Below are positions 1,491-55,813 of a stretch of 64,000 bases of DNA, in pieces. This DNA is from Thelephora terrestris. Its lineage: Eukaryota > Basidiomycota > Agaricomycetes > Thelephorales > Thelephoraceae. Made by a program: the position numbers and the translations under genes. Each line of letters starts with the position of its first letter. The first letter of the stretch is position 1. Location of the stretch: NCBI GenBank assembly GCA_015956445.1, contig WIUZ02000003.1, forward strand, positions 2,356,001-2,420,000, given 5' to 3'. The notes beneath the pieces were generated by a model, which ran no database searches, was not told the DNA's origin, and saw only the letters and a list, made by a program, of their open reading frames with translations.

Positions 1491-1817
1491 TTGCGAAGAT
1501 CTGTTTGCTTGATTCACGAGAACCGTCTCGACGACATACCTTTTCCACCCCCCGTTTCAAAGTACCACCACGGCCGACCCCAAGGGTTCGCACACAATAA
1601 ATCCGCGCGACTACAGGCTCCCGATTGCCTCCCCCGAATGCGGACCGGAATTCCACCAACTATCATCTCTGGGATTAAGAGGGCCCATGCAGGTCTGGCT
1701 TATGCCCACCTGAAGCGGCGGGGCCAAGAGGAGTCTTACTGTGACCCTTCGCGCCCGTCCACGGACTACGGGGACCGTAGCAGATCTGAAGCGGGTGGGG
1801 ATTCAGGCAATCCATAA
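1491..1817 (+). pseudogene. Relic copy of the low-complexity tandem gene family (copy 1)
   Basis: The frame has no ATG at its start (it opens at a TTG) and no TATA box upstream. Two blocks match the intact copies. Around 1570-1600 the frame reads HHGRPQGFAH, matching NPGRSQGFAY in the gene at 4891. Around 1720-1800 it reads RRGQEESYCDPSRPSTDYGD, matching the GQEVSQSDYSGTSLDYGD stretch of the gene at 2839. Nucleotides at 1925-1965 also resemble the 3' flank of copy 2 near 3625-3665. It is most simply a decayed third member, 5'-truncated. Whether it is still transcribed cannot be told. Confidence 0.55.
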
Positions 1818-2375
1818 GTGTGAACCCCACTTCCCGGTGCCCCATCCGCGTCGTGAGTCGGCTGATAGAGGGAGGAAAACTATGGCGACCGTCGATAGTA
1901 AACGGGCCACACCTGTGGTGCTATAACCGATCACAATCGTGCATTTATTTCCCCCTGCACACATTTTTAGTGATGTTCGAGTTCTCCAAGCACACATGGC
2001 AGTTTCTGGCACTTGGTTTATGGACATCATTGTGCCTCAGTTTATTTTCTGCAGGTGACTCTCCACAAGCTCTGGGTAGCCGCAGTACTGACCGGTTGGG
2101 ACATCCTTTCGTCGGCAGATGTCTGGTGGTTCGGATACCCGCTCGCCACCGACTGCTACGCCCGGATCATCTTTCCAACCCATCAGAGACCCCAATCCCC
2201 CGCTTTAACCCAGAGTTCGGGCCACGTACGCTCCCACCGCTCAGAACACACACGTCGCCGTTCCGCCACGGACTGGACAATCCTTGGGAGAGCATAATCA
2301 AGCATTTCAGGTCGATAATGAATACACTGTAACGGTCTGGATTCAATAAAGTAAGCCGACGCCCATTGATACCTT
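1818..2375. other. Spacer of the tandem array, no gene seen
   Basis: Holds a 3' flank block at about 1925-1965 shared with copy 2. No coding frame in it has support from similarity or splice signals. Confidence 0.45.
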
Positions 2376-2564
2376 GCAACACGCTCGGCCGTTCCCTCCC
2401 AGGGCGTCAACGGCATAGCCATTCAACCCGCCGTAATGTCTTAAGGTCTACAACGATCTTGCCGAGACACTACCCCGCATACACTGAACCTCCATCATGG
2501 ACCATCCGGCGACACCTTCAACGGCGATGATCTGCATGCTGTGCCCTTCACCGGTCCCGACCTG
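2376..2564 (+). pseudogene. Broken short coding fragment upstream of copy 2
   Basis: In the frame starting at 2376 the translation parallels the intact 59-residue ORF at 4464-4643: QG..G....QP, then a cysteine-arginine pair, HTL.LH, and an identical ending AVPFTGPDL. An in-frame TAA at 2442 interrupts it. The nucleotides around the ending are identical over about 29 bases to those at 4614-4643. The 60-odd codons are conserved as protein, not only as DNA, so an ancestral gene lay here. I do not recognise the family. Confidence 0.5.
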
Positions 2565-2784
2565 TGGGTAGTATGTGAGACACGTTGCTACTGAAACTTG
2601 GTATATCAGGGCTGCCTTGCACCCAATTTCGGACGGAAAATCCAGGATGTGGGCCCTATAGTAGCCATGCTTGTGTAGGTTCCGTTCTGCGCTTAGACCT
2701 GATAGGCCGCTGCGTTCGACGAAGGTTGTCTTTCGGGGGCCCCTTTTCATGCTGGCAGCCCAGGTCGAACATTCGGCAGACGCA

Positions 2785-2790
2785 TATAAG
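2785..2790 (+). promoter_or_regulatory. TATA box of copy 2
   Basis: TATAAG inside a block (CATATAAGGAGAGGGG) shared with copy 3. It lies 54 nt upstream of the ATG at 2839, exactly the spacing seen in copy 3. Confidence 0.6.
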
Positions 2791-2838
2791 GAGAGGGGGA
2801 AAGGGTTTCCACTCCCTCACCACCTTCTCACATCCCAG

Positions 2839-3588
2839 ATGAACCCTCAACCCTCCAACTTCTATTATCAGGGCAACAACGGCCACCACGGCGGATACGG
2901 GGGCAATCAACGAGGCCTGCCCGTGGGTGGTCCCCCGATGTATCATGGGCACATCATCGTCTACAACGCCAACTACGTATTCATTCAGGTGGACCCCCAG
3001 TCAAATTATCCCCATGGCCAACCCTGGGGGCAGGCTGGATACCAACAAGCCTCTATGAACACACGCGCCCTACCATCTATCCAGAATACAAACCCTTGGC
3101 CTATCGGCCATCACCCCCAGAATGCATACTTGAATCCCCCCAGCAATCCCCTCCCTCCCGCATACCGAAGTTCATCTGAGGTCGGGAGTACTCATTGGGG
3201 TTCTGCCGATCTCCTCGCACTTCCGGCCGCTTCGGATCGTGCCAAAAGCTCCAGAATCGAAAGCTGGATCCAGCATACACATCTCGGAAGTATGAGCTCA
3301 CAGCCACATCACCCCGCTTCGCGACGTACCAAATCAATCACGACCAATGATGGTTATTACGATTACCAGGGCGGGGGGAAAGGCCAAGAGGTATCTCAAA
3401 GCGACTATTCGGGCACGTCTTTGGACTACGGGGACGGTTCTGAATCTGGAGTGGGTAAGAGGACTAGGCGACGTGGAAGTAGAAGATCACAGAATACTTC
3501 CCAGCGCCACCCTGTCCGTACCACACGGTGTGTGACACGGGAACCAGGAAGGGCGACTACGACATGCGTGAGGGAGTATGTCATGTAA
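2839..3588 (+). CDS. Low-complexity Tyr/Gly/Asn/His-rich protein, tandem array copy 2
   Basis: A single uninterrupted exon encodes 249 residues. I choose the ATG at 2839 because it follows the conserved promoter block at the same distance as in copy 3, and the upstream extension has no ATG. There is no signal peptide and no globular domain. The N-terminal third is rich in Asn, Gly, Tyr, His and Pro (for example YYQGNNGHHGGYGG). The middle is Ser/Thr-rich, and the C-terminus is strongly basic (GKRTRRRGSRRSQ). The whole chain looks intrinsically disordered and prion-like. The segment near residues 172-200 (DGYYDYQGGGKGQEVSQSDY) aligns with copy 3. Function is unknown. The composition would suit a condensate-forming or cell-surface protein, but that is inference. 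Confidence 0.6.
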   Translation: MNPQPSNFYYQGNNGHHGGYGGNQRGLPVGGPPMYHGHIIVYNANYVFIQVDPQSNYPHGQPWGQAGYQQASMNTRALPSIQNTNPWPIGHHPQNAYLNPPSNPLPPAYRSSSEVGSTHWGSADLLALPAASDRAKSSRIESWIQHTHLGSMSSQPHHPASRRTKSITTNDGYYDYQGGGKGQEVSQSDYSGTSLDYGDGSESGVGKRTRRRGSRRSQNTSQRHPVRTTRCVTREPGRATTTCVREYVM

Positions 3589-4463
3589 CGATCGATATCA
3601 TCTTCGTGGTTCCCCAAATACTTTTAGTCAGTTACAATCATGCATAATTCTCTACACTACGCACACCGATATGTCTCGTCGAAGATGTGAGTTCCCTGGA
3701 TCACATCGCCTCAACCTTCAGGCCTCAGGCCTCAGGTTGTGTGACGCACGCGATTTGGATCTCAGGGCCTCGTCCCGCAGCAAGTCCACCATTTAGCCAC
3801 CTCTTTCTCAGCTCGTGGTCCATTGTACCCTCTGAATACCTCTGATGTGGCACCAAGGCCGGGGACTCCCTCTTGCCTTGCAGCGGGCGCCCGAAGGTCA
3901 AACAAACAAGGAGTTTACCCTTTCTGTTTACAAGAAGAATGGGAAAAAGTCATGGCCCGACCTGAATCCCGGTTTCTGGGATTGTACAAGGGCGAGACCG
4001 ACGCGATTTGATTCTCCGCCATAAATGTCTCTTGACCATCGGGTTATACGCACGGACCGGGGAATCACTACACTTCGTGGTGCTCTCGGATGTGTGGGAT
4101 TCCTTGTCACGTACGCCACACCGTTCTTGTAATGACCAAAGTCCTCCTGCAGCGTCTGTCTTCTGTAGTAATTAGTGTAGGAGTGTCGGCGATCGATCCC
4201 TCGGACACGAATAGTCGGACTTCGGGAAGTTGTATATGGGTGAGAAGGACGAGAAGGATCACGAGAAGGGAGCAAGATTTTTCAGGTGGAGGCCAACATT
4301 CGGAAATCGACAGCTTTGGTCTACTGTGCGGGAGAGCAGACCTCAGCAGAGGGAGAGTGATGTCGTCGGTCCGAACCGCGGATGATCGACTCGGATACAC
4401 TCGTTCCGTTGCTGCAGAATCAGCCACACCACTCTTGCACACTTTCCGCCGACCCTTTCTGCC
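3589..4463. other. Spacer of the tandem array, no gene supported
   Basis: 3620-3665 matches the 3' flank of relic copy 1. Open frames on both strands between 3930 and 4570 overlap one another, and none has a start, splice pair or motif that singles it out. Confidence 0.45.
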
Positions 4464-4643
4464 ATGCTCATTCTCTTTCAAGGTGCCAAAGGCGCGGTAG
4501 TACAGCCCTTCATTACGAGCCAGGACCCGCGGCAGACGTGCCGACTCGTCGCACACACACTGAAATTGCACCGCGACCCACTGAACGGCGCGGTCGATTT
4601 TGAGGATCCGTTTGCTGTGCCCTTCACCGGTCCCGACCTGTGA
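4464..4643 (+). CDS. Short conserved ORF upstream of copy 3
   Basis: ATG at 4464 opens a 59-residue frame ending at a TGA at 4641. The C-terminus reads FEDPFAVPFTGPDL. The TGA lies inside the sequence CTGTGAGTAGT, a good splice donor, so this could be a first exon ending at about 4640 instead of a complete ORF. A candidate following exon begins at about 4720 after TGCACAG. The same protein sequence, broken by a stop, occurs upstream of copy 2. Conservation of the amino-acid pattern suggests past or present translation. No family is recognised. Confidence 0.4.
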   Translation: MLILFQGAKGAVVQPFITSQDPRQTCRLVAHTLKLHRDPLNGAVDFEDPFAVPFTGPDL

Positions 4644-4836
4644 GTAGTATACGGGCCACGCTGCTGCTAGCCTTTAGTGCTTCTTTGTACTTGATCTTGG
4701 ACGGTGATAATGCACAGGACGTGTGGCGACTCATAGTCATGATCCTTGGTGAGTTCCGTTCTGCGCTTAGGCCTGACAGGTCGTTGCGTCCGGTGCAAGG
4801 ACGTCCTTTGAATGTCCCTTCTCTGGGCATGGGGCA

Positions 4837-4842
4837 TATAAG
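4837..4842 (+). promoter_or_regulatory. TATA box of copy 3
   Basis: TATAAG in the same block as in copy 2, again 54 nt upstream of the ATG (4891). Confidence 0.6.
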
Positions 4843-4890
4843 GAGAGGGGGAAACGGTTCCATTCTCTCACCCCCCTTCACACATCTCAG

Positions 4891-5649
4891 ATGAGATCTA
4901 GAGCCATCGAATTCGACCTCCAAACCAGCACCTTCGGCATCCACCTCGCGAAGAAGACAGAGCGAGGTGGGCCCAGGGAGACTGTTTACTACCCCCAGGA
5001 AGCTCACAACCGCACGTCCCATCAAGCCCCCTACTATCCCGAGTATAACCCTGGTCGATCCCAGGGGTTCGCATACCAACCAGCACCCATAACCACATAC
5101 CAACCAGCGCCCATAACCACATACCTCCAAGTACCTCCCCCGTATTCAAACCACAATCCCACTGGCCATCATCACCATCACTCTCACAAACACAGACACA
5201 AGACTGAGAGGACCCACGAGCGTTCGCGTTCGCGTTCTCCCTCTGTCCTTCCGTCACCCACCGACGATCCGACACGCGGCAGAAGCCCCAATGGGTATAA
5301 CCGGAGTCCGGAGGCGCGTGGAAGTGTGCTCGTCGATCCAGTTCGCCTCAATTCGTCAGACACCGGCTCCTCAGTCGTGACAGATGAGGGCTATCGCGGA
5401 GCCCAGGGCCAACAGGTGTCTTACTATGCCCCCTCCCACACGCTTTCAAACCCCGGGCCGCGTGGCGCATACGAAGCGGGTGGGGGGTTTAGACAACCTG
5501 CGAGCTGGAATACAGGGAACTTCCCTCAACCCCAGTATTACAATCCCGGCCCCAATTATAATGTGGTACATAACCAGGGAGGACCGGCGCCGATGTTTTA
5601 TTACAACTATGGTAATTATGGTTATGGATATCCTTACCGACAATTTTAA
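4891..5649 (+). CDS. Low-complexity Pro/Tyr/Gln/Asn-rich protein, tandem array copy 3
   Basis: Single exon, 252 residues, ATG directly after the conserved leader ending CACATCTCAG. The N-terminal 45 residues differ completely from copy 2. Then come a duplicated eight-residue unit YQPAPITT (about residues 65-80), a His cluster (GHHHHHSHKHRHK), and an RS-like run (HERSRSRSPS). The C-terminus is rich in Asn, Tyr, Gly and Pro, ending GYGYPYRQF. It shares the block VTDEGYRGAQGQQVSYY with copy 2, and PGRSQGFAY with relic copy 1. It has no signal peptide, membrane segment or catalytic motif. It is predicted to be disordered. The RS and His runs recall RNA- or metal-binding low-complexity tracts, but this is only compositional. 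Confidence 0.6.
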   Translation: MRSRAIEFDLQTSTFGIHLAKKTERGGPRETVYYPQEAHNRTSHQAPYYPEYNPGRSQGFAYQPAPITTYQPAPITTYLQVPPPYSNHNPTGHHHHHSHKHRHKTERTHERSRSRSPSVLPSPTDDPTRGRSPNGYNRSPEARGSVLVDPVRLNSSDTGSSVVTDEGYRGAQGQQVSYYAPSHTLSNPGPRGAYEAGGGFRQPASWNTGNFPQPQYYNPGPNYNVVHNQGGPAPMFYYNYGNYGYGYPYRQF

Positions 5650-6619
5650 TCGATTTATAACATGCTTTTCTCTCTACACGAGTCACTAATGGTTTTGTGG
5701 ATATGTTTATGTCCTTTTATACGTCTATATAAACATCCTTACCACCAGTGAGCGGCAGATCCCCTATCTCGATTGTGCGTGAGGTTTGGTAACTTTTGAT
5801 ACCCTGGGCTTTCGGTATACTGTCCGTAACTCGACCAACCCGGCGGTCACCCGTCACCGCTCCAGACAAGATTGAATCGACCGGATGTTTTGGTCGCCGG
5901 GTTGGGCTTGTTGCTACAGTAATCGCGATCAAAGCCTATTCTTAAAGGAGAGCTGAGGCTAACGAACACGATGTCCGATTCGCTCTTGCTCAAAAATCGC
6001 TTTCCTAACGCATAACCTGAAGAATTCAAGGGCCCGATGAAGAGGAGGGACCGAGACCAGGGATTCTGTTCGGGTGCGGTTAAGTTTATCGACGATCATC
6101 TTCAGCCTTTTCATCGCTTGGACACACAGTGGGGTCCGGTATGGCGCTTATATTTGCATGCCGCTTGTCGATTGTCCTGAACACCCCGCCGCAGAATCTT
6201 AGATCACATTCATTTGAGGTTCGTCTGCTGCCACACCTCCGCCGCATCCGTAAGGGGGCTTTTCCCATATATATGTATGCAGTACCTGCCAGTTATCGCT
6301 CGTCTCTCTTTTCCTACCTCGTCTCCCTCTCTGTTTTCAATAGCGGCTACACCGTTCATCCTCTCGGACCCACAGTCCTCAAAGGGGTGCCTGTCAAGCG
6401 GAGTCTGAACTCATAGCCACTAACCATATGCGGTATATTCCCTTTTTTGGTATGTGCCACCATTTCCGGTTTACGGGAAGCTCTCTGATTGGCTGTCTCA
6501 CGGGCACTCATCCTGTAGCATGGACAATGGACTGAACGAGGGATTTAAAACGAGATGGACCTTCACAAAGTACCACCATCACCCAATTGCCTTTCTCTCC
6601 CCACCATCTACACCATCCC
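5650..6619. other. No gene seen
   Basis: Only short unsupported frames on both strands. The right end is the pyrimidine-rich leader of the zinc-finger gene that starts at 6620. Confidence 0.45.
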
Positions 6620-7434
6620 ATGTTTTCTCAAGCTTCCAGTTCTCCCCAGGTTTGTGGTTTCGCGCGGCACCTGTGGACAGGCTTTAATGCTCGAACGCCT
6701 CTCGATACCAGGTAGATCCGGGCGATGATCACTTCCACGGCGTTGCCGCAATGTTTCTCATGCCCGTATGATTCTCCCCTTCTTTGCTTGGCAGCGTACT
6801 GAACAGATACTACAGGGCGATGACGATCCTGTCTTAATGGGAGACATGGTGTACAATTTTTTGGCTCGCGAGGCAGATGTGGCACCTCAAAATTTTCCAA
6901 ACCCCCTTGGCTATCCTCCGCCGCCAGAGAATACACATGCTATGAACCGCCTCACCAATCCCTCCCGCGCTACCTGGGACGCCACTCCCTGGACTACTAC
7001 GTATGCCCCGCTAAGCTTCGATACACTCTCAGAGACCCCCTGATTTTCGTCGCAGGAATGACTCGATCCCTGCCCCGTCTCCCTCGCCGTCTCCCTCTCA
7101 AACTTCATCCACCTCAGAGCATAACCGACGATCGCCCGAACCGTCGTCGACCCCCGACGCATCGCCCACCCCAGAACCAAGTTGCCGCCAAGCCAATCCC
7201 GTATTCAACTCCGTCCGGGGGAAGTGGTCCTGCAGCATATGCGACAAATGTTTCCGAGGGAGGTGGGAATGCAGGCGGCACATCGGGGTCGTCGGAAAGC
7301 GAGTCAAGTGTCTCGCTTGCGGAGGACAACTCACTGGGAGAGATGACTCCCTACGAAGGCACCTCAGAAAGTACTGCAAGGGAGACGTTCGTAACGTCAG
7401 GTTTGAAGATGCTTTCGTCGACGTTAAGGAGTAA
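6620..7434 (+). CDS. Orphan C2H2/C2HC zinc-finger protein
   Basis: Exons 6620-6649, 6795-7000 and 7056-7434 join in phase to give about 204 residues. The second intron is a textbook one (GTATGC donor, CTAAG/CTGAT branch candidates, CGCAG acceptor). The first intron (GTTTGT..GGCAG) is longer and less certain, so the ten-residue first exon is provisional. The middle is a Ser/Pro-rich linker. The C-terminus carries two cysteine-histidine modules. The first is WSCSICDKCFRGRWECRRH, a degenerate finger with one histidine of the usual pair replaced. The second is CLACGGQLTGRDDSLRRH followed by LRKYC, a CCHC arrangement. Such proteins are common as lineage-specific candidate DNA-binding factors in mushrooms. 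The target is unknown. Confidence 0.65.
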
Positions 7435-9158
7435 GAGATTGCCTCCCTAGGGCCGGAACACGGCCTTCGTGGTGAAAAGCGGCTTCACGTACAAGAACCG
7501 CTGTTCGCTGGACCGAAGTGCGTTTTCCAGCCTGAGCTACAGTTTTCCATACCTTCTTGTATATTTCCTGATATCTTCCCGTTTCGTTTCCGGTGAGCAC
7601 CAGGTCTCATTGTGTGTATCATAATTCCCGTAATCCTTGTATCGATATCCTTGACTGTCGCATACAAATACGACCCTTTCATGGACTTTCCAACTCCGGG
7701 ACGACTGCGGTAGACAACAGGCGGTCGTTAGGATCAGGCGTACCCGGGTTCAGAGAACTTTTACCATGCCCCAGTCTCGCTGTGAAATCGTTGAGGGAAA
7801 CTGCCGACCAGGGCTAGGGTATCCTGGTGAAAGGTGCACGTTTGATATCTTACATGTAATTCTGGTCCTCGCGGAGAATCGCTCTTCGAGATGCCGCCTG
7901 AAACGCGCCCTATACAATAGCTCCCGTCCAAGCCACTCGAGCGGCGGCAGTGACGGCTTTGTCCTCGCGGGGTAATTGCCTTCGGGTGAGCCAGAGTTGT
8001 GACTTTCCGACGAGGCTGGTGCCTTCATTACTCAATCACTCGAGACGAAAATGCTTCGAGTAACCGATTTGCATCCGCGTGATACTAAGTTAGATATGCG
8101 TCCTTTATGCACGAGGAAAGGAACCTACTTGACGGGGACTCCATCAGCAAATCGTGGAAAGTCCGGCAGTTGAATATATGGGTCTACGAAAGTCGTAGTC
8201 CGGTATATAGCCTTATAACGCATTACATAGATCGGCGCTAACGGTCACCTGGGAGGTATATAATGGCTTACAACGCATTATAACGGGTTATAAGCCCTTG
8301 TATGGGAGGTACCCTGATTACCAGACTTTCCTCAACTTGCTGATGGAAGACAGGCGACGATTCCGTGGGTTGATCGCGCAGAGGCGTAGCGGGAGCCCAT
8401 AAGCCATCCTTGCCCCCGCCCGTCATCCTCGGCGACGCTGGGTCCGCACGATACTGATTTATCCCGACGGAATCATCCCAAATCACTCCTGAGCTGTAAA
8501 GTAAATGCAGCCGGTCGAGATTTTTGAGTCGCCTCTATTGTTAGTCCTATGAGTAGTCGAGTACTCACGGTGTCTCTCCGTTTTGTTCTCCGCACCGCGC
8601 AACGCCCTAGTACGACGCTGATCACCAGCGCGCAGTGACAAACATTCTCAATCGGAATTTGCCGTCGGCGTTGCTTTGTCCGTGACTCCACCGCCCGCTT
8701 GCCGTCACCTTTTGGCCCACACACGAACAATGGCAAGATTGTATCGTGGCAGCGCCGAGATACGTCAGCGCGTTTTCTGATGCCCACGATTGAGCGCCAC
8801 GTACCTACAGGGTAGACAATTTGGCCATCGGGCCGCATCCCCCGGTTCGTACCCACGGTGTATCTGGAACATAACTTAAGTATATGCGCTATTTTTCGAT
8901 TCCCGCATCTTACGTACCACCAGAACCGGCGTTGATTCTAACTGCGTTCACTTTACGCTGCCCCTATGTTATGAAGGCTTGGCTTTGTTCTTTCGAGACA
9001 CGAGGCATTGAGGTTCCCTTGGCCTTCATCCGCCACAGCAATCACTGCGTGGCGTGAGGCCATGGCCGGAAGATCGTTGCCACGCTTCTTTCACGACGAG
9101 CCTTTATAATCCACCCAAGAGTCCACGACCACCTGAACTGTCCATCTTTCGTCACCCC
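7435..9158. other. No gene supported; short AT-rich repeats at 8205-8310
   Basis: The block 8205-8310 contains direct repeats (TAACGCATTA / CAACGCATTA, GGGAGGTA twice) and several TTATAA palindromes. It may be a decayed element or a promoter-like region. A minus-strand open frame (8473-8856) exists but shows no motif or splice support. Confidence 0.4.
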
Positions 9159-9889
9159 ATGAGACCCCTCTTGAACAAAGACTTTCGTCGTCTCCGTTGG
9201 TTATTGAGACAGGAACCTCCAAAGCGAGTTCGAGGTTCGTCCGCGGGTTTCATACACTCTTCCTTCCGGTGGCTTATTCCCTTGGCAGACTATGTGACCC
9301 GAGAAGTGGCGTCTCTCGGTAGGGGCGGGGTTCATTCTGTGATTCTTTCGCGGTTGAGAAACACCCTACGAGCGGCAAAGATGAAAATGGCGCATGCGAT
9401 CTCCGCCCTCTGTTTCGTATCAAGAATGCGGTTGCGGGACCGAGGGGGCACCAACGAGATCCCTCTCGACCGTCGTATGTGCAAGGAATTGTACGGGTTT
9501 TTCCATAACGCTGCTTTCTGCGGACCGGTGAGTGACTGTGCGAATCGACGTATTTGGTTTGGGCTGACCCCCCGCACGCGTAGACGGCAAACAGGCAAGC
9601 GGATATGTTATTCTGTCGGGAAGAAGTGGACAAGTGGTACAACGGTTCAAGGCCACGCGTCCCAGACGACGTGATCGAGCAGAAGATTATCGAGGGGTAC
9701 CCTGATCTGTGTACCCATGTACGCGCTAGGGTGGAACGGCTGTACGCGTTTTTCGAGCTCCCGCCCGACCTGAGCCTGCCGCGGCCACCCCCTGTGCAAT
9801 CTATATGGGAGATGCCCCCTTCAGCCACGAGCCCTCCGCGTCCCTACAGCGCGCCACTGTATCATCAGAGAGCCCCGGGGTTCCGCTGA
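9159..9889 (+). CDS. Hypothetical protein, two exons
   Basis: Exons 9159-9527 and 9584-9889 meet in phase 0 across a 56-nt intron (donor GTGAGT, acceptor CGCGTAG). The joined protein is about 224 residues. The best-supported part is the second exon, an acidic/basic mixed helical region (DVIEQKIIEGYPDLCTHVRA) followed by a Pro-rich tail. The first exon is very basic (many Arg) and lacks any recognised motif. The true start may lie upstream, because the open frame continues in phase to 9054 without another ATG. No family recognised. Confidence 0.4.
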
Positions 9890-10976
9890 ACGATGGGATG
9901 TGGAGCCAGGAATTCCTCAGAGATTCATGCGTTGCTCCCGTTTGGAACGTTGTTCGTGTCTTGTTGTATTTGTACCTGGGTCCTTTGGGATGCCTAATGT
10001 CAACGATCTGCTTTATAAACCGCCTCGTCGCTGAGAGTCACGGTCCATGCGTCTTAAAGAGCTCGGGCTTTGTCATGCGGCGAGTAGACTGACAACAAAC
10101 CCCAAGATGTCCGACCCTCAATGTTGTCTGCGGCTCCATCCAACTCGGATAGGAGGCGGGTTCTGTTAAGGGCTCGCCTGTGCGCCAAAGGGCGCGTCGA
10201 GATGTTGCAATCGGTTTCCAAATATGACGGGAAACGTGAACGTGAAGTTTGGGCGCGCCTTGCGTAAGCGTGCCACATTTTTCTCCCGTTGACGGGTTGT
10301 ACGAACACCTCAGGTTCTCCGACCTTCTGATCGGCCCTCATGCTGAGTACTGAGTGCTCGGGAAGAATTCATCTCAGACTCCGGCATGCTCTTGGCTTTG
10401 AAAGATACACCTAGTGGCGTATCGAGACAAGCGGCTGGTATGGAATGGCACGAGTGGACATCATCCAGATGGTGGCGCGGTGCAAGAGTAGGGGGTATAA
10501 GGAACACGTAGTCGACCGTAAGATAAGCTGACGAACGCAGATGGCACAACCAGTTGCGCTGAATGGCTGCGATTAGGAACGATGCAGGAATGCGATGATG
10601 TTGGGGGATGCTTGTGCCACTGGCATGTGCAGGAGGCGGTCTCGTTCAAATGAAAAAAGTAAACTAGAGCGAGCTATTTTTGCCCGACGCTAGGACTTGG
10701 GCGCTGGGCGGATCAGCAAGACGTCGCGAAAATTTCGTTAAGCTGCCCACGCGTACCAGCGTCCTTACACGGCCCACACCATCGAATCCTGACGCCTGAC
10801 TCCTGAATCTTGGAAGAGCAATGAGTTTCGTGTTCCTCAGTCGGGAGTGAACGCCCTCAGGTGTCCTCGCCTGCCGAGGATTGGCGTATGGGAGCCAACT
10901 TCCTTTTACGGCAGCCCTCGCCGCAGTGCCAGCCCAAGTTGACGTCGGGAACCGACCTACTCGCTTACTCACTCGA
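9890..10976. other. No gene seen; promoter side of the MAM3-like gene
   Basis: Frames on both strands are short and unsupported. The right end must contain the promoter of the gene starting at 10977. No clear TATA box is visible. Confidence 0.45.
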
Positions 10977-13900
10977 ATGGTGATAGCTGTCTCGACTGGT
11001 ATTGGCCTCCTCTTGGTCAACAGCTTCGTCGACTTGTCGAATCTCTTACTTCCAATCCTATCTTCCATCTTCTCTACCACTACAACCGACACCAGCCATG
11101 CCGGCCACACCTTCGCGAAACGAGACGGACTCTCCGAAACCAACAAGGTCATCTTTGGGTGCCTCATACCGGTCCTCGTCCTTCTTTCCGGGCTCTTTGC
11201 TGGGCTTACGTTAGGATACATGAGTCTGGATGAGACTCAGTTGAACGTGCTCAGTATGAGCGGGACACCGTGAGTTGAGGTCTGACGACCACCCCAGTTC
11301 CACTTCTCTGACCCCGCATCGCAGTGAACAGAGGCGTTACGCAGAGAAAATCAAACCTATCCGGAAGAATGGCCACCTCCTCCTCGTCACCCTCCTGCTC
11401 TCGAATATGATAGTCAACGAGACATTGCCGGTGATTGCGGATCCCGTTCTCGGCGGTGGCGTTCAGGGCGTTGTGGTTAGCACGGTGCTCATCGTGCTGT
11501 AAGTCTCATGCGGACCGTTTTACTCCGCGGCTAACGACGGCTTCCTATGCTGCTGATGTAGGTTTGCCGAAGTTATTCCTCAATCTATTTGCACTCGATA
11601 CGGCCTTTGGGTCGGTGCGAAGATGGCACCCTTCGTACAGGTCCTACTTTGGACTATGGTAAGCCCAAGCTTGGGTCCAATTCGTGTTCGTTTGTGAACT
11701 CTCGTTGATCTTCGGATCCTTCGGCCGACAGGGGATCGTCGCGTGGCCGGTTGCCAAATTGCTCGAGATCGTGCTGGGGGCTCACCACGGAATCATCTAC
11801 AGACGCACAGGTAAGCGTACTAGGCATTGTCGAACTACGTGTGATTTATTGATATGTCTTGACCACCAGAGCTGAAAGAACTAATTGCGCTGCACTCTTC
11901 CGCGGGACAGCACGGCGGCGACCTCAACAACGATACGGTCACGATCATCGGCGCCACACTCGACCTCCAGGAGAAGGTGGTCCGTCAGGTAAACATCACT
12001 TTAGCGCGTCGATGCCGTTTGCATTCGTTGATCGCGATCCATTCAGGCGATGACGCCGATCAAGGACGTCTTCATGCTTTCGATCGACAGCAAACTAGAC
12101 TACGAAACGCTCCGCAAGATTTGTGCGACGGGCCACAGCAGGGTCCCCGTGTATGAAGAAGTTGAGGTTCCAACCTCTGGTGTGATCGAAGCTAGGAACA
12201 GAGCTGGATCTGCCATCTCCACCCCTCCGTGCCTGGATAAGAAGGGCGGCGACGGAAAGACCATGGTGGTCAAGAGGATCATCGGGATTCTGTTGGTGAA
12301 ACAGGTTCGCAGCTTCGTAACCTGATCGATTCGGCGGTTGTTCTGACTCGGTTCGCGTCCTCTAGTGTGTTCTCCTCGATCCAAGCGGTACGTCTACCCC
12401 CCAAAACATGATGTCATAGGCAACTAATGTTTTGCAACAGATGCGATCCCCCTCCGCCAGATCAAGCTCAACAAACTCCTTTTCGTTAGGAACAACGAAC
12501 CGCTCCTGGGAATCCTTGACAAGTTCCAAGAAGGTCGTTCGCATATCGCTATCGTCAGCCGATTCAGCGCGGAGAAGGCCAAGAGCGTCAAGAAGGCCGT
12601 CAAGCAAGGCCTCACTCAACGCATCCGTCAGTCGGTCGGGATATCGGATGATTCTAGCTCAAGCAGTTCGAGCAGCGAGGGTGGGGATAGCGAGGACGAA
12701 GCCGGATCAGGTGGAACCAAGAAGAGCCGCTTCACATCCCGGAACAACACGATACTGGATAGTCCGACAGACCGGGATGCCACTTTACGAGGAGACCCCG
12801 TCCCGGAGGACAAGGAGCACGGGGACCTCAGCGAGGGGATTTCCAAACGGCGGTTCAGGCTCCGGAGGAAGAAGGATGGGAAACATCGAAAAGTACGACG
12901 CGGGAGGGCGAAGGAGGGTGACATCGAGACCGGAGAGGTCCCTCAGGACGCAAGCAAGATTGGAGGATTCGGATTGTCCTCGAGGGAGCAGATCACACCC
13001 GCCGATGCTGTCTTGGCCGAGGAGAGCGCGAACGAGGTTAGTTCGCCTGATGCTTTTCCACTCCTTTTTTCATTCACGGCTGACATCCTGCCCATAGCTT
13101 CTGCAAATATTGGATCCTGCAATTATGCCTCTGGGGATCATCACGCTCGAAGACGTTCTCGAAGGCACGTGTACGACGAGGGTTTGTCTTTCAACGGTTG
13201 CTAACGTTCGTTGACAGAGCTCATCGGGGAAGAAATCTACGATGAATTTGACCCGCACCATGAAGGAGCCCAACTCAGCTCCTTCATCCCGCCGGACTCA
13301 GATGGCGCAGCCACGATCACCACGGTCAGCGCTAAAGACGCTGGTTACAGTCACACGGATAGCCTTGCACCTCCCATCAGCCACACTTCTATTGGATCTG
13401 GACTCGGACTTGGACACGGACCCGCAATCGTAAAACCTATTGCGCTCAAGGCCATGGAAGGGTTTGGGTTGCTGACAAGCAGGAGTCGGAGCGCACCGCC
13501 GATTCCGAGGGAGCAAGCCGGGAAAAGACCTTCATCCAAGTCTGGTGTCCCACCTACGACAGGGGACAGCAACGAGTATGAATCCGATGTGCCGGTTGTC
13601 ACTCATATAAACGAGAAGACCGACGGTCTTCATCTCGACCCGCCTACTCACCAGATCACTGGTGCAGAACCTCAACAACCTAAGACTCAACACGATACCT
13701 CAAAACTTGACTCGACTATAGCCCACGCCTCAACACATGGTTCACATATTGCAATCGTTACGCCCCCTCATATCTCATCTCCGTCGTCCCTTGAGGCATA
13801 CTTCTTGGAGAGGAAGCGAAGGGGAGCATCGGGGGGAGGGGCACCTCCAAGGATTGTTACTCCTTCTCCAGGTGGGAAAGGGAAGGGGTTCAAGAGTAGT

Positions 13901-14029
13901 CCGCTGAGCCCTGTGGAGAGGGATGTTATCACGGATGAAGTAAAGAGCAAGGGTAAAAGTAGTGCTACAAGAGTGGGTTATGAGAATGCCCTTCCTTCAG
14001 AGACGGTAATGGAGAGTAAATCAGACTAA
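10977..14029 (+). CDS. MAM3: CNNM/CorC-type membrane transporter-like protein (DUF21 + CBS pair)
   Basis: Ten exons in consistent phase: 10977-11269, 11325-11498, 11562-11658, 11732-11810, 11870-11988, 12047-12304, 12366-12387, 12441-13036, 13098-13164, 13218-14029; 838 residues. After an N-terminal hydrophobic segment, the DUF21 domain (about residues 60-210) begins FGCLIPVLVLLSGLFAGLTL and contains LLLVTLLLSNMIVNETLPV. The CBS pair begins near 255 (MTPIKDVFMLS, GHSRVPVYEE) and continues in HIAIVSR. The family signature ITLEDVLEELIGEEIYDEFD sits near 558-577. About 150 Ser/Lys/Asp-rich residues separate the two halves of the CBS module, as is usual in fungal members. Yeast Mam3 is a vacuolar membrane protein involved in metal homeostasis; vacuolar or Golgi location here is by family. 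Intron 9 (13165-13217) has a GC donor, and no GT alternative keeps the reading frame. The long C-terminal tail is disordered. Confidence 0.92.
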
Positions 14030-35330: not shown

Positions 35331-37159
35331 ATGTCCTCGTACCCCGGCCAAGGCCTATCCACAGATGAACTCCTCTTTGCCCTAGGCAAGGATCTAGAAC
35401 AAAAGCTTGCACGGTATGCACCTCCGATTGAGCTGCCCGGACCTATAACTGACCGAGCGCAGCCCGTACCCGCCTTTCGATTTCGCCGAGGTGGGAACGG
35501 AGTTCTGACCCTGATCCGCCCTTCCTAATTACCTTAAATATACAGGTGGATGCGCTCGAGAAAAGCTTATCCAAAGTATCCATGAAGATCCGCACCATGA
35601 AGAATGCGCTGGCATCGGTGAATAACTTGCCCGTCGAAGTGCTCCAGCAAATCCCCTCCTGGCTTCCTTTCGTTGCCGACATCATTACCGCCTCCCAGGT
35701 CTGTCGCTATTGGCGGAAGGCATTCCTATCCTATTCCAACCTGTGGTCCTACCTCAATTGCAGGTCGGAGCACGCGACACATGCTTTGTTGGAAAGGTCT
35801 GGAGTATCCCCATTGGACATCGTCATCAGTCCCGGATACTCCCCCCGAGCCTTTTGCTACACCATTCCACATGTCAAACGATGGGAGGTTCTGGACGTTC
35901 GGGTACTCCGTGACGAGCTAAATGTTGTCTTCGCCACAATCACGGGCCCGGGTACAGCTCCGAAACTACGCGAATTGACCATTGTCCCGATGATGGGATA
36001 CGACTCACCAGGCGCGATAGATGTCAAGGGCAAAATCCTCGGAGGAGAGCTCCCTGCGCTGCAACGGCTATGTCTGTGTAGTCTCAAGATCGAACTCCAC
36101 AAGCTCACGGCCCCCAATCTCACCCACGTCTTCCTCGCCTGCACTCGCTCCGAGTTCATTTCCATGACCGCGTTGCTGGATTTCCTCGAACGCAGCCCCC
36201 TCATCGAAGATTTCGAGCTTCGCTACCCCGGCCCCAACCTACCAGACTTGGCGCATCCGGACCACATAATATCTCTTCACAATCTCCGCCGTATCGTTCT
36301 CTGGGACCGGGGTTCGATGTACATTCACCATCTCACCTTACCCTACGGAGTAGAGTGCGAGCTCAACTTCCTCTTCACCGAAGTTTTGGGAACGGCGGGG
36401 TTCATCGAAGAGATGTTCGCATTCCTTCCCGAAAGGCTCAAGCCGATTTACGAAGCCGAGACCATGAGCATCGTTCCGAGTTACAATCGCGGCGCCGTCC
36501 GGTTTAAAGCGCCCAGCGGATTTGTGGAGATACTCCCAACGTTCTTTCACGGAGATCGCACCTCTATCACGCGGTTTATTGTCTACCCACCCCCCGTTCT
36601 GAGAAAGGTCAAGGAGTTGTTCGTTTGTTCTAGGGATGGGATAATTCCGGGGTGGGGGTCTGCTGATGTTAGGAAGCACCTCAAAAAGATGACTTCACTT
36701 GGGTCCCTCACCATCATGCAATGTAATGCTACGTCTTTCATACGAGCCCTCCTTCCTTCCGAGGGCAAGGTTCCATGTCCTACTCTGAAGAACCTCACTA
36801 TCCACTTCGCACATTCCGAGACCTCCTGCGTTCCCGATTTCAAGTCGATGGTCGAGCAGCGGGAATCACACGGGCACAAGTTTGAGAAGATCGTTTTGAT
36901 TTTCGACTCTCAGGTCCCCGATCCTCCCGATTTCCCGAATTTGGAGGTCAAGGTGGATCATCGGCCTTTGTATTGGGACGCGAAGAAGAAGGTTTGGAGG
37001 TATTTGCAGGAGGGGGAAGGTTATATGGAAAGCCATGGCAATCGAACCCTCGCTCCGCCCGGTATCATACCCATTGACCCTATCATGATCCCCGGTATGA
37101 TTCCCGGTATGATCCCTGGCATGATTCCTGGTATGATCCCTGGGGTGCACCTTCCATAG
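35331..37159 (+). CDS. F-box protein with C-terminal MIPG repeats
   Basis: Exons 35331-35465 and 35546-37159 join in phase 0 (donor GTACCC, acceptor ATATACAG); 582 residues. Residues about 66-115 form an F-box of the mushroom type: NNLPVEVLQQIPSWLPFVAD, then ITASQVCRYWRKAFLSYSNL with the conserved CR.WR. The remaining 400 residues are a leucine-rich repeat-like fold as in the large Agaricomycete F-box families (for example LTAPNLTHVFLACTRSEF). By family it would couple substrates to an SCF ubiquitin ligase through Skp1. Substrates are unknown. The chain ends in a run of MIPG units (see 37085-37144). The weak donor makes the 45-residue first exon less certain than the rest. Confidence 0.82.
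37085..37144 (+). repeat. 12-bp tandem repeat, five units, coding for MIPG
   Basis: Five in-frame units of consensus ATGATYCCYGGY, differing only at third or synonymous positions. They code for (Met-Ile-Pro-Gly)5 just before the stop codon of the F-box gene. The synonymous scatter means the repeat is not brand new. Confidence 0.9.
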
Positions 37160-51489: not shown

Positions 51490-53256
51490 ATGTCTGCCGA
51501 GCTGGACTCCCTTATTGCACTTGGAAACGATATGTGAGTCCTGACTCATGTGCTCATCTTGTATAAGTGGCTAAAATGAAAGTGCGTGTTAGTATCGCAA
51601 CTAAGGTGCCTCTCCGCGATTCCCCCTTCCACTAGTGAAAACAATGACCGTCCGTTTTCTCAGTATTACGGGGTAGCCACTACCACGATCCTTTTCTATG
51701 ACTACCTCTTGACGCTGGCGGATGAGGTTCGTCGAGATCACTCTTTGAACACCTTATGGCAACTCCATATTGAGATCACTTCTCTGAAGGTAGAATATTT
51801 TTGGTCCAAAAAGAAATCGTGGAGTGCGTGCACGATTCGGGGCGGGTTTACCTCCCACTGATTATTGGGTAGCATTCTGGTTGTTCATCGCTGTGAGTCT
51901 AGTCTACCCTTTGTAAGATTCCTCCCTAGTCTGAACAAGGGTTACAGAATAGGTACTTCCCCATGACGTACAAGTTTTTGCCCTGTTAGTGCTTTACCCT
52001 GCCGCTTGGATCCTGGGAGTATGTGTTGATTATGAGCTGTCGAATCAAGTGTCCTATATTCCACAGTTTAACCAGAAGGTGAGTCTTATCCGACCACAAA
52101 TCACGCGAGCCTCTGTTGACAGTTGGGGTACGATCTATGGATCACAGGTGTAAGAATTACAGTCGGCGAACCCCGGAAGTCCTCACCCCACTCACCTTCT
52201 CATAACATCAGATGCGACAGGGCCACAGTCTTCTTCGTCTTGACGATGGTCGTTTGCACCTTCGTTGCACAGGTGGCGTTGACCGCAAGGTTGAAACCTC
52301 TTCTTGTTTGGCGATTCTGAGTTGATTCTTGGGAATGGTCTCACAGGATATACGCTGTGACGTTTAAAAATGCCGCAATCGCGATTGGGTTTGCTGCTGT
52401 CACCGTGTTCCAGTTCGCGCTTGGGATATACGTCACGGCACTTACCATAACAATGGGAGGTAAGGGACTATCCTTACAGTGGAAGAACCATTCCCGTTCA
52501 GAATGCCTGCAGCCCAAAAGTTCCCGCCGATTCCCTTGGGTGCATACAACCTGTGTGTTTTTTCACCGCACAGGACCCTAGAAATCGTGTACACAAGCGT
52601 CTCCCTCTTTTATGGTGTGTGAAAACCGCCAACATAGAATTCTGGACGGTGCTAACAACCCACGCCCTAGATTCCCTTGCGTTCTCGATGATAATATTCT
52701 TCACAACACGATTGAGTCGAAAGGTGCGGGGGCTCAGGGTTCCGCCTCTTTTGGAAATCATTGCGGAGGATGCGACGTGGTACTTCCTGGTTATTTTTAC
52801 CGCTCATTTTGCGCTCGAGTTGACGATACTCTTCGAACGGGTGAGTGCCGCGATCATTCCTCTCTTTTTACTACAGTTCATGACATCGACATCCCATCCG
52901 TATCTCTCTAGGAATCGATCCAACTCCTTCCGGGCTCGTGAGTAGTTATCAATTCACTCTGTGCTTACCAACCCTCACTAGAGTCTTCGTTACCACAACT
53001 AGTGGCCTCGTGGTGTAGGCCCTACATTTCTGCCAGCGATCTCTTATTTGAGTAACTAACGGTCATTTTCAGGTATCTTCCCGTGATGGTTTCGCGAATT
53101 ATGCTCTCGTTGAGGAGAGCCGCAGACTCGAACACGATGGGCTTTTCACCCGTGGGACTACCTCTGAACAATAGCAATTTTCAAAACACGGAGTTCTTCC
53201 GTCCTCAGAGGGATACGAGCCCTGGGGCAGATGATATACCGTATGCTGAGGCGTAG
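51490..53256 (+). CDS. DUF6533 family seven-helix membrane protein, middle part unresolved
   Basis: Exons that join in phase: 51490-51533, 51636-51726, 51790-51823, 51873-51892, and one starting at 51948; then 52212-52289, 52347-52459, 52513-52614, 52671-52840, 52912-52937, 53073-53256. The family core is clear: YYGVATTTILFYDYLLTLAD, VEYFWSKKKSW, FWLFIANRYFPM, CDRATVFFVLTMVVCTFVAQ, and IPLGAYNLCVF before LEIVYTSVSLFYDSLAFSMI. A cytoplasmic Ser/Asn-rich tail ends the chain. DUF6533 proteins are Basidiomycete-specific seven-helix membrane proteins of unknown function. Between 51984 and 52211 I found no splicing that keeps phase. Candidate pieces exist (one reading LLVLYPAAWILGVCVDYELS in another frame), so the gene may be frameshifted here or contain an exon I missed. 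Confidence 0.7.
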
Positions 53257-54011: not shown

Positions 54012-55813
54012 CCCTCCCGATGGGTCAGCACGGACCACAGAAAGAAGAAAAAACAGGAAGCGAAACCAAAAAAAACACCCACCGTACCCACCTTTCCCAC
54101 CACCTCCCCTATGGATAACACCGCCATTATATTGATGAGCGGACCGTTGATCACAAAGGTAAAGCATCATTGGATGCTGACGACACAAACCTCGAAACTC
54201 AAGGGAAGTTCGAAACGCTCCTCTGCAGTGGAGAACTATCCGACCCTCAACCTCGAGCCTCAAAAGGCCCTTTGGAGGATCGCGTTCATCCGGCTCACCT
54301 TCCCCCCCGAAATCTGCGCGCCCGAAAAGAACTGCCCAACCGGAACACGACGAAGGAAAAACGACATGCTCATCGTTGAGTCCCCCCGCACACATGCCTA
54401 CACCAGGTAGGAGGAGCAGGGGAACTCGGCGTCCGGTGTAGCCGCAAGAGACGGTCCGCTACCAAGAACTCGCTCCCTCTTACGAGGACCAACGCCTTTG
54501 GACTTTTGGAGGGTGCAGGTCGCGAGCATGAATGGAAGGATACAAAAAACCGAGTTTTTTGCCAGTAGAGTCCCACCGTGCACGTAGGAAACCACCGAAG
54601 ATCGGACCGAACACGGCCCGATCCCCTTCCAAAACCAACCTCCAAGGGACTCGCAGGAGTGGGGCCTACAAGCGCAAAAAACAGTTCCAGACGCCAGGAA
54701 GTCGCGGACGGAGAACCCTTTCGAAGAAGACGGCCGGATACCAAACTCCCGTCGTGGACGAGCTATGAATATCCAAGACACCGCTCCCGGTACTCAGGAG
54801 CCGAACAGCCCCATCGAGAATCGTCTGGACGTTCAGCTTGCGCCTTCGGCTTTCCTAAACCCGGCCGCGGAGGTCTAGGAGCTCCTACGAGCGATCCCTG
54901 AAGGTCGGCTACTCGAAACCCACCTACCTACTCGTCCTCAGGGATTTCGGCATAAGCGAGTCTCGGTAAAGCCCAATTCGTGATCCACCATCCGAGAAAT
55001 GAGCAAGTGACGAGAAGATGAGATCACCATCTTTCCCGTCGACCTGGCCCATCCACACCGCGTGCCGAACCAAGGGGACGGAAGCCTACAAACACACCAG
55101 GGATAATTCTGGAGTCTTCGGCTTTCTAACACCGAGGTGAAAGATGACTCCCAAGGCCAGCACGGATGCAGTTCCCAGGTAGTGGATACGCGAGTTGACC
55201 GGGGCCGTCCCGCAGGGGCAGCTCGGACGCGCGGGTAGATGCCATACGAAAGTTCCCGAAGGAATGGAAGAATGAGGAATCTCATACTAATCGGGGCTGT
55301 CAGTTCAACACGACAGAGGAGAAAAGAAAGAAGGGAAAGGCAGCGGAGGCAGCGGCGGCGGAGGAGGGTCCAACCAGCAGGGGGCTATGGAAGGGGGAGG
55401 ATCCACCAAGACAGCGTGACGTCGGACAGCTAGTGTCCAACCCGGCGGCCGGCGCCATACACGCGTTATGGTCCTGGAAAGTGGTGGATCAGTGCATGGC
55501 ACCATACGAAGATGGCAAGAACAAGGGAAAATGTCCGAAGCGAGCGTCCAAGGCACGTAAAACGAAGGGGAAGGTGCGCGATGATACAGGGGGTAGGTAG
55601 AGGGAAGTGGAGAGATAACGAGAAGTAGGTGTCCGAGAAGAGAGAAAGAGAAATGGGAGTCCGAGAAGAGAGGGAGAAGGAAGTGTCCGAGCAGAGAAAA
55701 AGAAGAAAGAAGGGGAAGAGGAGAGGCATGTCCATGATGCTATGCGTACGTCCAATCAGCCAGAGATACAAAAGGATCAGAGCGTGCCAAAACCGTACCC
55801 TTGAATCTCCAGT
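54012..55813. other. T-poor, purine-rich spacer without a believable gene
   Basis: The plus strand is depleted in T over about 1.8 kb, so stop codons are rare and long frames open on both strands. One plus-strand frame runs from 54111 to 55868 with about nine stops, all TAG/TGA/TAA that single C-to-T changes could explain. Composition alone accounts for much of this. The block 55600-55720 is an AG-rich repeat (GAGAAG-type units). Confidence 0.45.

Follow-up and report, generated by a model that had tools for sequence, protein, structure and literature searches.

Three tandem units occupy about 1.3-5.7 kb of a 64-kb window of the Thelephora terrestris genome (contig WIUZ02000003.1, positions 2,356,001 to 2,420,000), the window being the whole stretch of 64,000 nucleotides analysed here, to which coordinates refer unless otherwise stated. 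All three lie on the plus strand: a relic without a promoter block, unit A (about 1340-2000), and two genes, B (2839-3588) and C (4891-5649), each composed of a promoter block, one open frame and a 3' segment. The start codons at 2839 and 4891 are spaced 2052 bp apart. Each gene is a single open frame, of 249 codons in B and 252 in C, encoding a basic protein (isoelectric points 9.7 and 9.5, respectively) of 27-28 kDa in which Y, N, G, P, H, Q and S together make up 57% (B) and 59% (C) of all residues. The C protein features a His-rich stretch, an SR-like stretch and a YNG-rich tail, and a 24-bp tandem duplication (YQPAPITT, 5072-5125) lies inside the gene. The two genes share a homologous core (codons 57-212 of B, 3007-3474; codons 52-203 of C, 5044-5499), and the 3' untranslated segment of B (3622-3664) resembles the stop region of C and the sequence beyond it (5644-5686), at a score reached by 3 of 500 shuffles. 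What the pair has largely retained since duplication is its promoter and the amino-acid composition of its core; what has diverged is the order of its residues.

The promoter is largely preserved between the two genes. As the initial annotation had stated, TATAAG begins exactly 54 nt before both start codons (at 2785 in B and 4837 in C), and the self-similarity between 2530-2850 and 4610-4900, on which that annotation had staked its claim, is present. The blocks at 2526-2842 and 4602-4894 align with a BLAST E-value of 5e-26 (69.3% identity over 326 columns, gap columns counted), and over the slightly longer segments 2478-2842 and 4554-4894, 256 of 320 aligned positions are identical, for a score of 246, where 100 shuffles gave at most 40. 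This similarity is concentrated in three islands, where identity in 30-column windows peaks at 97%, 90% and 87%, dropping to 30-67% between them, and which hold identical runs of 30, 18 and 21 nt. The first island is identical throughout (2537-2566 in B, 4613-4642 in C), the second is 90% identical with its first 18 nt unchanged (2679-2708 and 4753-4782), and the third, comprising the TATA element and the 5' leader (2782-2838 and 4834-4890), is identical over its first 21 nt. At the start codon the similarity ends, the following 150-165 nt aligning no better than shuffles. Such islands are what selection on regulatory sites would be expected to leave; gene conversion should instead produce an evenly conserved tract. 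With up to three mismatches allowed, each of the three island patterns occurs twice in the 40.6-Mb genome, and the reversed-pattern control gave one match.

Beyond the start codon, the relationship between the genes is visible in DNA and all but lost in protein. The complete coding sequences align with a DNA score of 87, where none of 500 codon shuffles exceeds 54, and share the same codon phase in 386 of 505 columns. The proteins do not rise above shuffles (their score is reached by 34, 71 and 266 of 300 under three settings); the best BLASTP E-value is 0.13, MAFFT gives 26% identity, and 41 of 139 aligned core residues are identical. The heads, i.e. the first 56 codons of B (2839-3006) and the first 51 of C (4891-5043), lack detectable homology, with 235 of 300 codon shuffles scoring as high, and the tails (the last 37 codons of B and 49 of C) taken alone lack DNA similarity, 124 of 500 shuffles being as good. 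The cores of B and C are homologous at the DNA level and in codon phase, and it is the ends that are unrelated; the earlier description of unrelated N-terminal halves holds for the heads and fails for the middle. The motif GRSQGFAY, reported as common to both genes, is shared by C and unit A (as GRPQGFAH), with GQPWGQAGY as the counterpart in B.

Composition has outlasted residue order in the core. The cores alone contain the same 57% and 59% of Y/N/G/P/H/Q/S as the whole proteins. Among the 58 open frames of at least 150 codons in the window, those containing B and C (with their upstream extensions) reach 52% and 57%, the other 56 reaching at most 48%. Under neutral drift simulated from these sequences over a comparable distance with the base frequencies of the window, this content falls to a mean of 42-45% and the observed level is retained in 0 of 1200 runs; with the genes' own codon-position frequencies the mean is 47-49%, and 10 of 1200 runs retain it. 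In the core, composition is therefore kept and sequence is not. The ends do not share composition (r = 0.05 and -0.05): the heads contain 73% (B) and 41% (C) of these residues, being YNGH-rich in B and charged in C, and the tails 32% and 78%, being basic in B and YNG-rich in C. A swap of ends between the paralogues, pairing the head of B with the tail of C and vice versa, was considered and rejected, the resemblance being compositional only (the observed scores were equalled or exceeded by 294, 435, 102 and 391 of 1000 shuffles). A frameshift origin of the tails was rejected for the lack of DNA similarity between them on their own (124, 150 and 80 of 500).

The products are probably disordered. 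An AlphaFold model of C, built from a two-sequence alignment, has a mean pLDDT (predicted local distance difference test) of 38.4, with no residue at 70 or above. The proteins had been called prion-like, a term that fits weakly: the Q+N content is 13.6% in B and 12.3% in C, and on a PAPA-type score with a threshold of about 0.05, B reaches 0.077 and C 0.019. The further suggestion of surface proteins finds no support, as neither N-terminus is hydrophobic on the Kyte-Doolittle scale (best 12-residue mean within the first 40 residues 0.25 in B and 0.44 in C), which by this measure gives no sign of the signal peptide of classically secreted surface or effector proteins. There are two cysteines in B and none in C. 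A condensate-forming role, also proposed earlier, is plausible.

The manner in which the cores have diverged may carry a signature of selection. They were aligned in codon frame with nucleotide scoring, so that similar amino acids were not favoured, and across the resulting 139 codons B and C differ at 62 first, 63 second and 40 third positions. Pairwise maximum likelihood yields an omega of 2.5 with a likelihood-ratio test (LRT) statistic of 14.1, and an alternative alignment of equal length and score yields 2.95 and 18.4. Simulations were kept if their alignment spanned at least 60 codons, which was the case for 216 of 280 neutral runs, 26 of 40 purifying runs and 39 of 40 runs at omega 3; the observed LRT with omega above 1 was reached by 0 of the 216, 0 of the 26 and 24 of the 39. 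When alignments were sampled, the excess of differences at positions 1-2 over position 3 was 0.133; the 269 neutral runs that were kept (of 280) all fell short of this value, the highest giving 0.129, and 23 of 40 runs at omega 3 attained it. Coming from one pair of genes, these results are moderate evidence for a faster change of amino acids than of synonymous sites.

Unit A, which the initial annotation had recognised as a third, 5'-truncated copy, is real, being tied to B and C by segment matches that none of 100 to 500 nulls equalled. What remains of it is an upstream segment, fragments of the coding core and a 3' part. The upstream segment (1340-1509) matches 4453-4616 upstream of C (local alignment score 54, 0 of 500 nulls), and its portion at 1364-1469 matches the upstream segment of B (2392-2490; score 39, 0 of 500). 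A 5'-truncated open frame of 112 codons (1479-1814) holds the GRPQGFAH and GQEESY blocks and follows the codon phase of C over them; open runs of at least 112 codons average 95.8 per random window, so chance alone would be expected to yield such a frame. Two pieces of A align with C (1497-1667 with 4979-5173, and 1721-1810 with 5406-5496; 0 of 100 nulls each), and the 3' part together with downstream DNA (1715-2000) aligns with B (3371-3709; score 79, 0 of 100). Local alignment found nothing in A to match the promoter block of C (111 of 500 nulls as good) and, against B and C, no N-terminal coding region. A weak, out-of-order match between 1231-1303 and the B promoter (2730-2806; 1 of 500 nulls as good) may be due to chance. 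Differences by codon position are few enough to be treated as small samples: 9, 9 and 6 (of 25, 25 and 26) in the GQ block of A and C, 9, 7 and 5 (of 25 each) between A and B, and, without the excess at positions 1-2, 11, 8 and 9 (of 27, 27 and 29) in the mid block of A and C. The image of a decaying array suits unit A and does not suit B or C.

That B and C are genes is argued by the combination of homologous starts placed immediately after kept promoters, core homology in phase, and the survival of the frame: in trials of neutral substitution without insertions or deletions, the C frame stayed open 2 times in 4000. Codon usage is only mildly gene-like, since among 1000 random synonymous versions of each gene, 39 for B and 13 for C score as high.

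The reading we favour, with a probability of a little under one half (about 0.48), is that B and C are co-expressed, intracellular, disordered paralogues that act through their composition. The computation supports a tandem duplication from which two genes with intact open frames remain, along with one relic lacking the promoter block. The three islands of the promoter, the TATA element among them, have stayed nearly identical, and the cores have diverged past the reach of protein alignment with their residue content kept. By inference, both genes would be switched on together from one type of promoter, giving small, basic, disordered proteins that remain within the cell and share an activity exerted through composition, such as multivalent binding of low strength, perhaps to RNA or inside a condensate. 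Residue order would be free to change because the activity would depend on composition, and the new ends may give each paralogue distinct partners. Kept regulation combined with fast-changing, disordered products, as the initial annotation had proposed, agrees with the promoter islands, the excess at positions 1-2, the core composition and the low pLDDT, its surface role apart. A stronger version, in which selection after duplication was split in three (islands frozen, the amino-acid mix of the core held, change in residue order favoured), seems rather unlikely to hold as a whole. Were it true, a co-expressed fungal pair would be conserving its composition as a trait and diversifying in the positions of its residues.

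Several observations weigh against this reading. The selection signal derives from one gene pair with one alignable core, and it is sensitive to method: with two of the four gap settings the alignment shrinks to 27 codons (p = 0.06), the contrast is smaller when the DNA is aligned freely (54/129, 54/130 and 39/127), and of the four settings used for sampling, one lowers the excess to 0.123, which the highest neutral run under the default setting surpasses. The last stretch of B is without contrast (12/34, 16/35 and 14/33), and the non-coding promoter alignment, read in an arbitrary phase, is likewise uneven (26/104, 22/105 and 16/107). The correlation of core compositions, at 0.85, is unremarkable, being reached by 80 and 299 of 1200 drift runs, and an AlphaFold run on two sequences is a weak test of disorder. 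As for coding status, open runs of at least 290 codons were found nine times in 40 random windows of like composition, the codon scores of B and C fall below those of seven gene-like frames nearby, and a shifted C frame outscores C itself.

Some of these points would be accommodated by other explanations. If all three units were dying by neutral or nearly neutral decay, the open frames and the codon signal would be products of chance; unit A is plainly broken, the two proteins are no more similar than shuffles, codon usage is weakly gene-like without marking the C frame as the coding one, and random sequence of like composition contains long open runs not infrequently. We nonetheless think decay quite improbable, given how seldom the C frame stayed open in neutral trials, the failure of neutral simulations to produce the codon-position excess, their rare or absent retention of composition, and the kept promoter islands. 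Conflict or recognition genes, whose co-expressed intracellular products would be engaged in an arms race or in discriminating self from non-self, would instead have had amino-acid change selected with composition incidental. An omega above 1, turnover at both ends and tandem copies accompanied by a relic would be in keeping with this, as would a TPR frame with weak STAND/NB-ARC matches within 10 kb upstream (L007:1259-3412, minus strand). STAND/TPR-type genes are, however, common in fungi of this sort, so that this neighbour says little; moreover, neither protein has a Pfam domain or a hydrophobic N-terminus, and kept composition is not something such genes would require. We consider this explanation unlikely.

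The gene model itself may also be questioned. Were the upstream block transcribed, either as a 5' exon followed by an intron or as part of a longer frame, TATAAG would not be a TATA box. Island 1 runs into GTGGGT in B (2564-2569) and GTGAGT in C (4640-4645), both resembling the fungal 5' splice-site consensus, and the start of island 2 (2679-2696 and 4753-4770) is pyrimidine-rich and ends in TTAG, as a 3' splice site might; in addition, both frames are open through the leader and read alike (YKERGKGFPLPHHLLTSQM and YKERGKRFHSLTPLHTSQM). The implied intron, of 133 nt in B and 131 nt in C, nevertheless joins in frame for B and not for C when assembled by hand, the leader alignment contains compensating single-base gaps as in untranslated DNA, and the C frame lacks an equivalent of the ATG that lies upstream in B (2749). 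We retained the one-exon model because the upstream intron fails in C, and regard the alternative as very unlikely.

Among known systems, venom and conotoxin genes are tandem and fast-evolving, with flanks more conserved than coding sequence and omega above 1; their products are secreted, cysteine-rich and folded. B and C resemble them in their conserved flanks and elevated omega, and differ in having no hydrophobic N-terminus, two or no cysteines, and (for C, the protein modelled) no confident fold. Proteins of the DDR48/Cprp type are described as fungal, repetitive and disordered, with repeated S-Y-G motifs and a richness in Asn, Ser, Asp and Gly (PMC10512284). The likeness extends to low complexity, disorder, the presence of Tyr and, for one such protein, a basidiomycete origin; the repeated motif sets them apart, as B and C hold one [GS]Y[GS] each. 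Composition kept without residue order is one of the indicators listed in a review of composition-driven disordered regions (PMC12509984), and this the cores share. The difference is that two paralogues of one genome are compared here and that positions 1-2 change more than position 3. B and C are a clean further example of a kind already known. Paired by a frozen promoter, such genes may offer a way to measure the evolution of disordered proteins and to test selection on composition against selection on sequence.

Searches for further relatives covered the genome (40.6 Mb in 60 contigs) with DNA, protein and the three island patterns, and found no locus besides B and C, only the best candidates being scored. 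The sensitivity of these searches is limited: protein searches recovered each gene alone and missed its sister, and unit A went unnoticed in the DNA searches, so that another diverged copy lacking the promoter could escape detection. Genes of this kind escape protein homology searches; here the proteins miss each other and DNA identifies them as duplicates. A transposable element was rejected, these searches having found no dispersed copies in the genome beyond the two tandem ones. No further unit stood clearly above null expectation in the 10 kb upstream (best matches equalled by 28 and 6 of 30 nulls) or at 5700-14000 (2 and 3 of 30). Against Pfam, B matched no family and C gave two sub-threshold matches (E 0.19 and 0.32), with none above the curated cut-off. 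In PDB, B had no match and C six weak ones (E 0.27-0.87), all starting at the His stretch, which look like tags. Scans of viral contigs with C (3 pattern matches, 0 confirmed) and of prokaryotic genome contigs with B (20 pattern matches, 0 confirmed) say little, as these collections are non-fungal, and PADLOC anti-phage models gave no match. No publication was recognised as describing this locus or a similar pair among the matches listed, from a search outside which most subscription journals lie.

The window and the 10 kb upstream contain 92 open frames of at least 110 codons, 20 of which were scanned against Pfam. Upstream, 4 of 10 matched (a TPR frame, two frames of one transketolase-type gene and a Cmc1-type frame) and downstream 2 of 10 (an F-box frame and a Zn2Cys6 frame); these neighbours do not name a function for B and C. 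The TPR frame has 718 codons, lies about 6.6-8.7 kb before the window start, and combines a TPR match above the cut-off with sub-threshold STAND/NB-ARC matches of an NLR-like kind. Downstream of gene C, at 7046-7447, more than one frame is open, and a Cys/His-rich, zinc-finger-like stretch was noted by eye near 7230-7420; a 77-codon frame at 7199-7429, which may differ from the frame read by eye, had no Pfam match. Farther downstream, the F-box open frame (35453-37156) contains a 24-bp (12-bp) tandem repeat at 37085-37143. A search for 5.8S rRNA, intended to place the host, gave no match. The genome holds 43 matches to DUF6533, a family typical of mushroom-forming fungi, which agrees with a host of that type, and a weak match (E 4.8e-4) falls inside the window at 51664-51810. 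A degenerate A/G-rich tandem array of 26-28 bp occupies 55611-55709.

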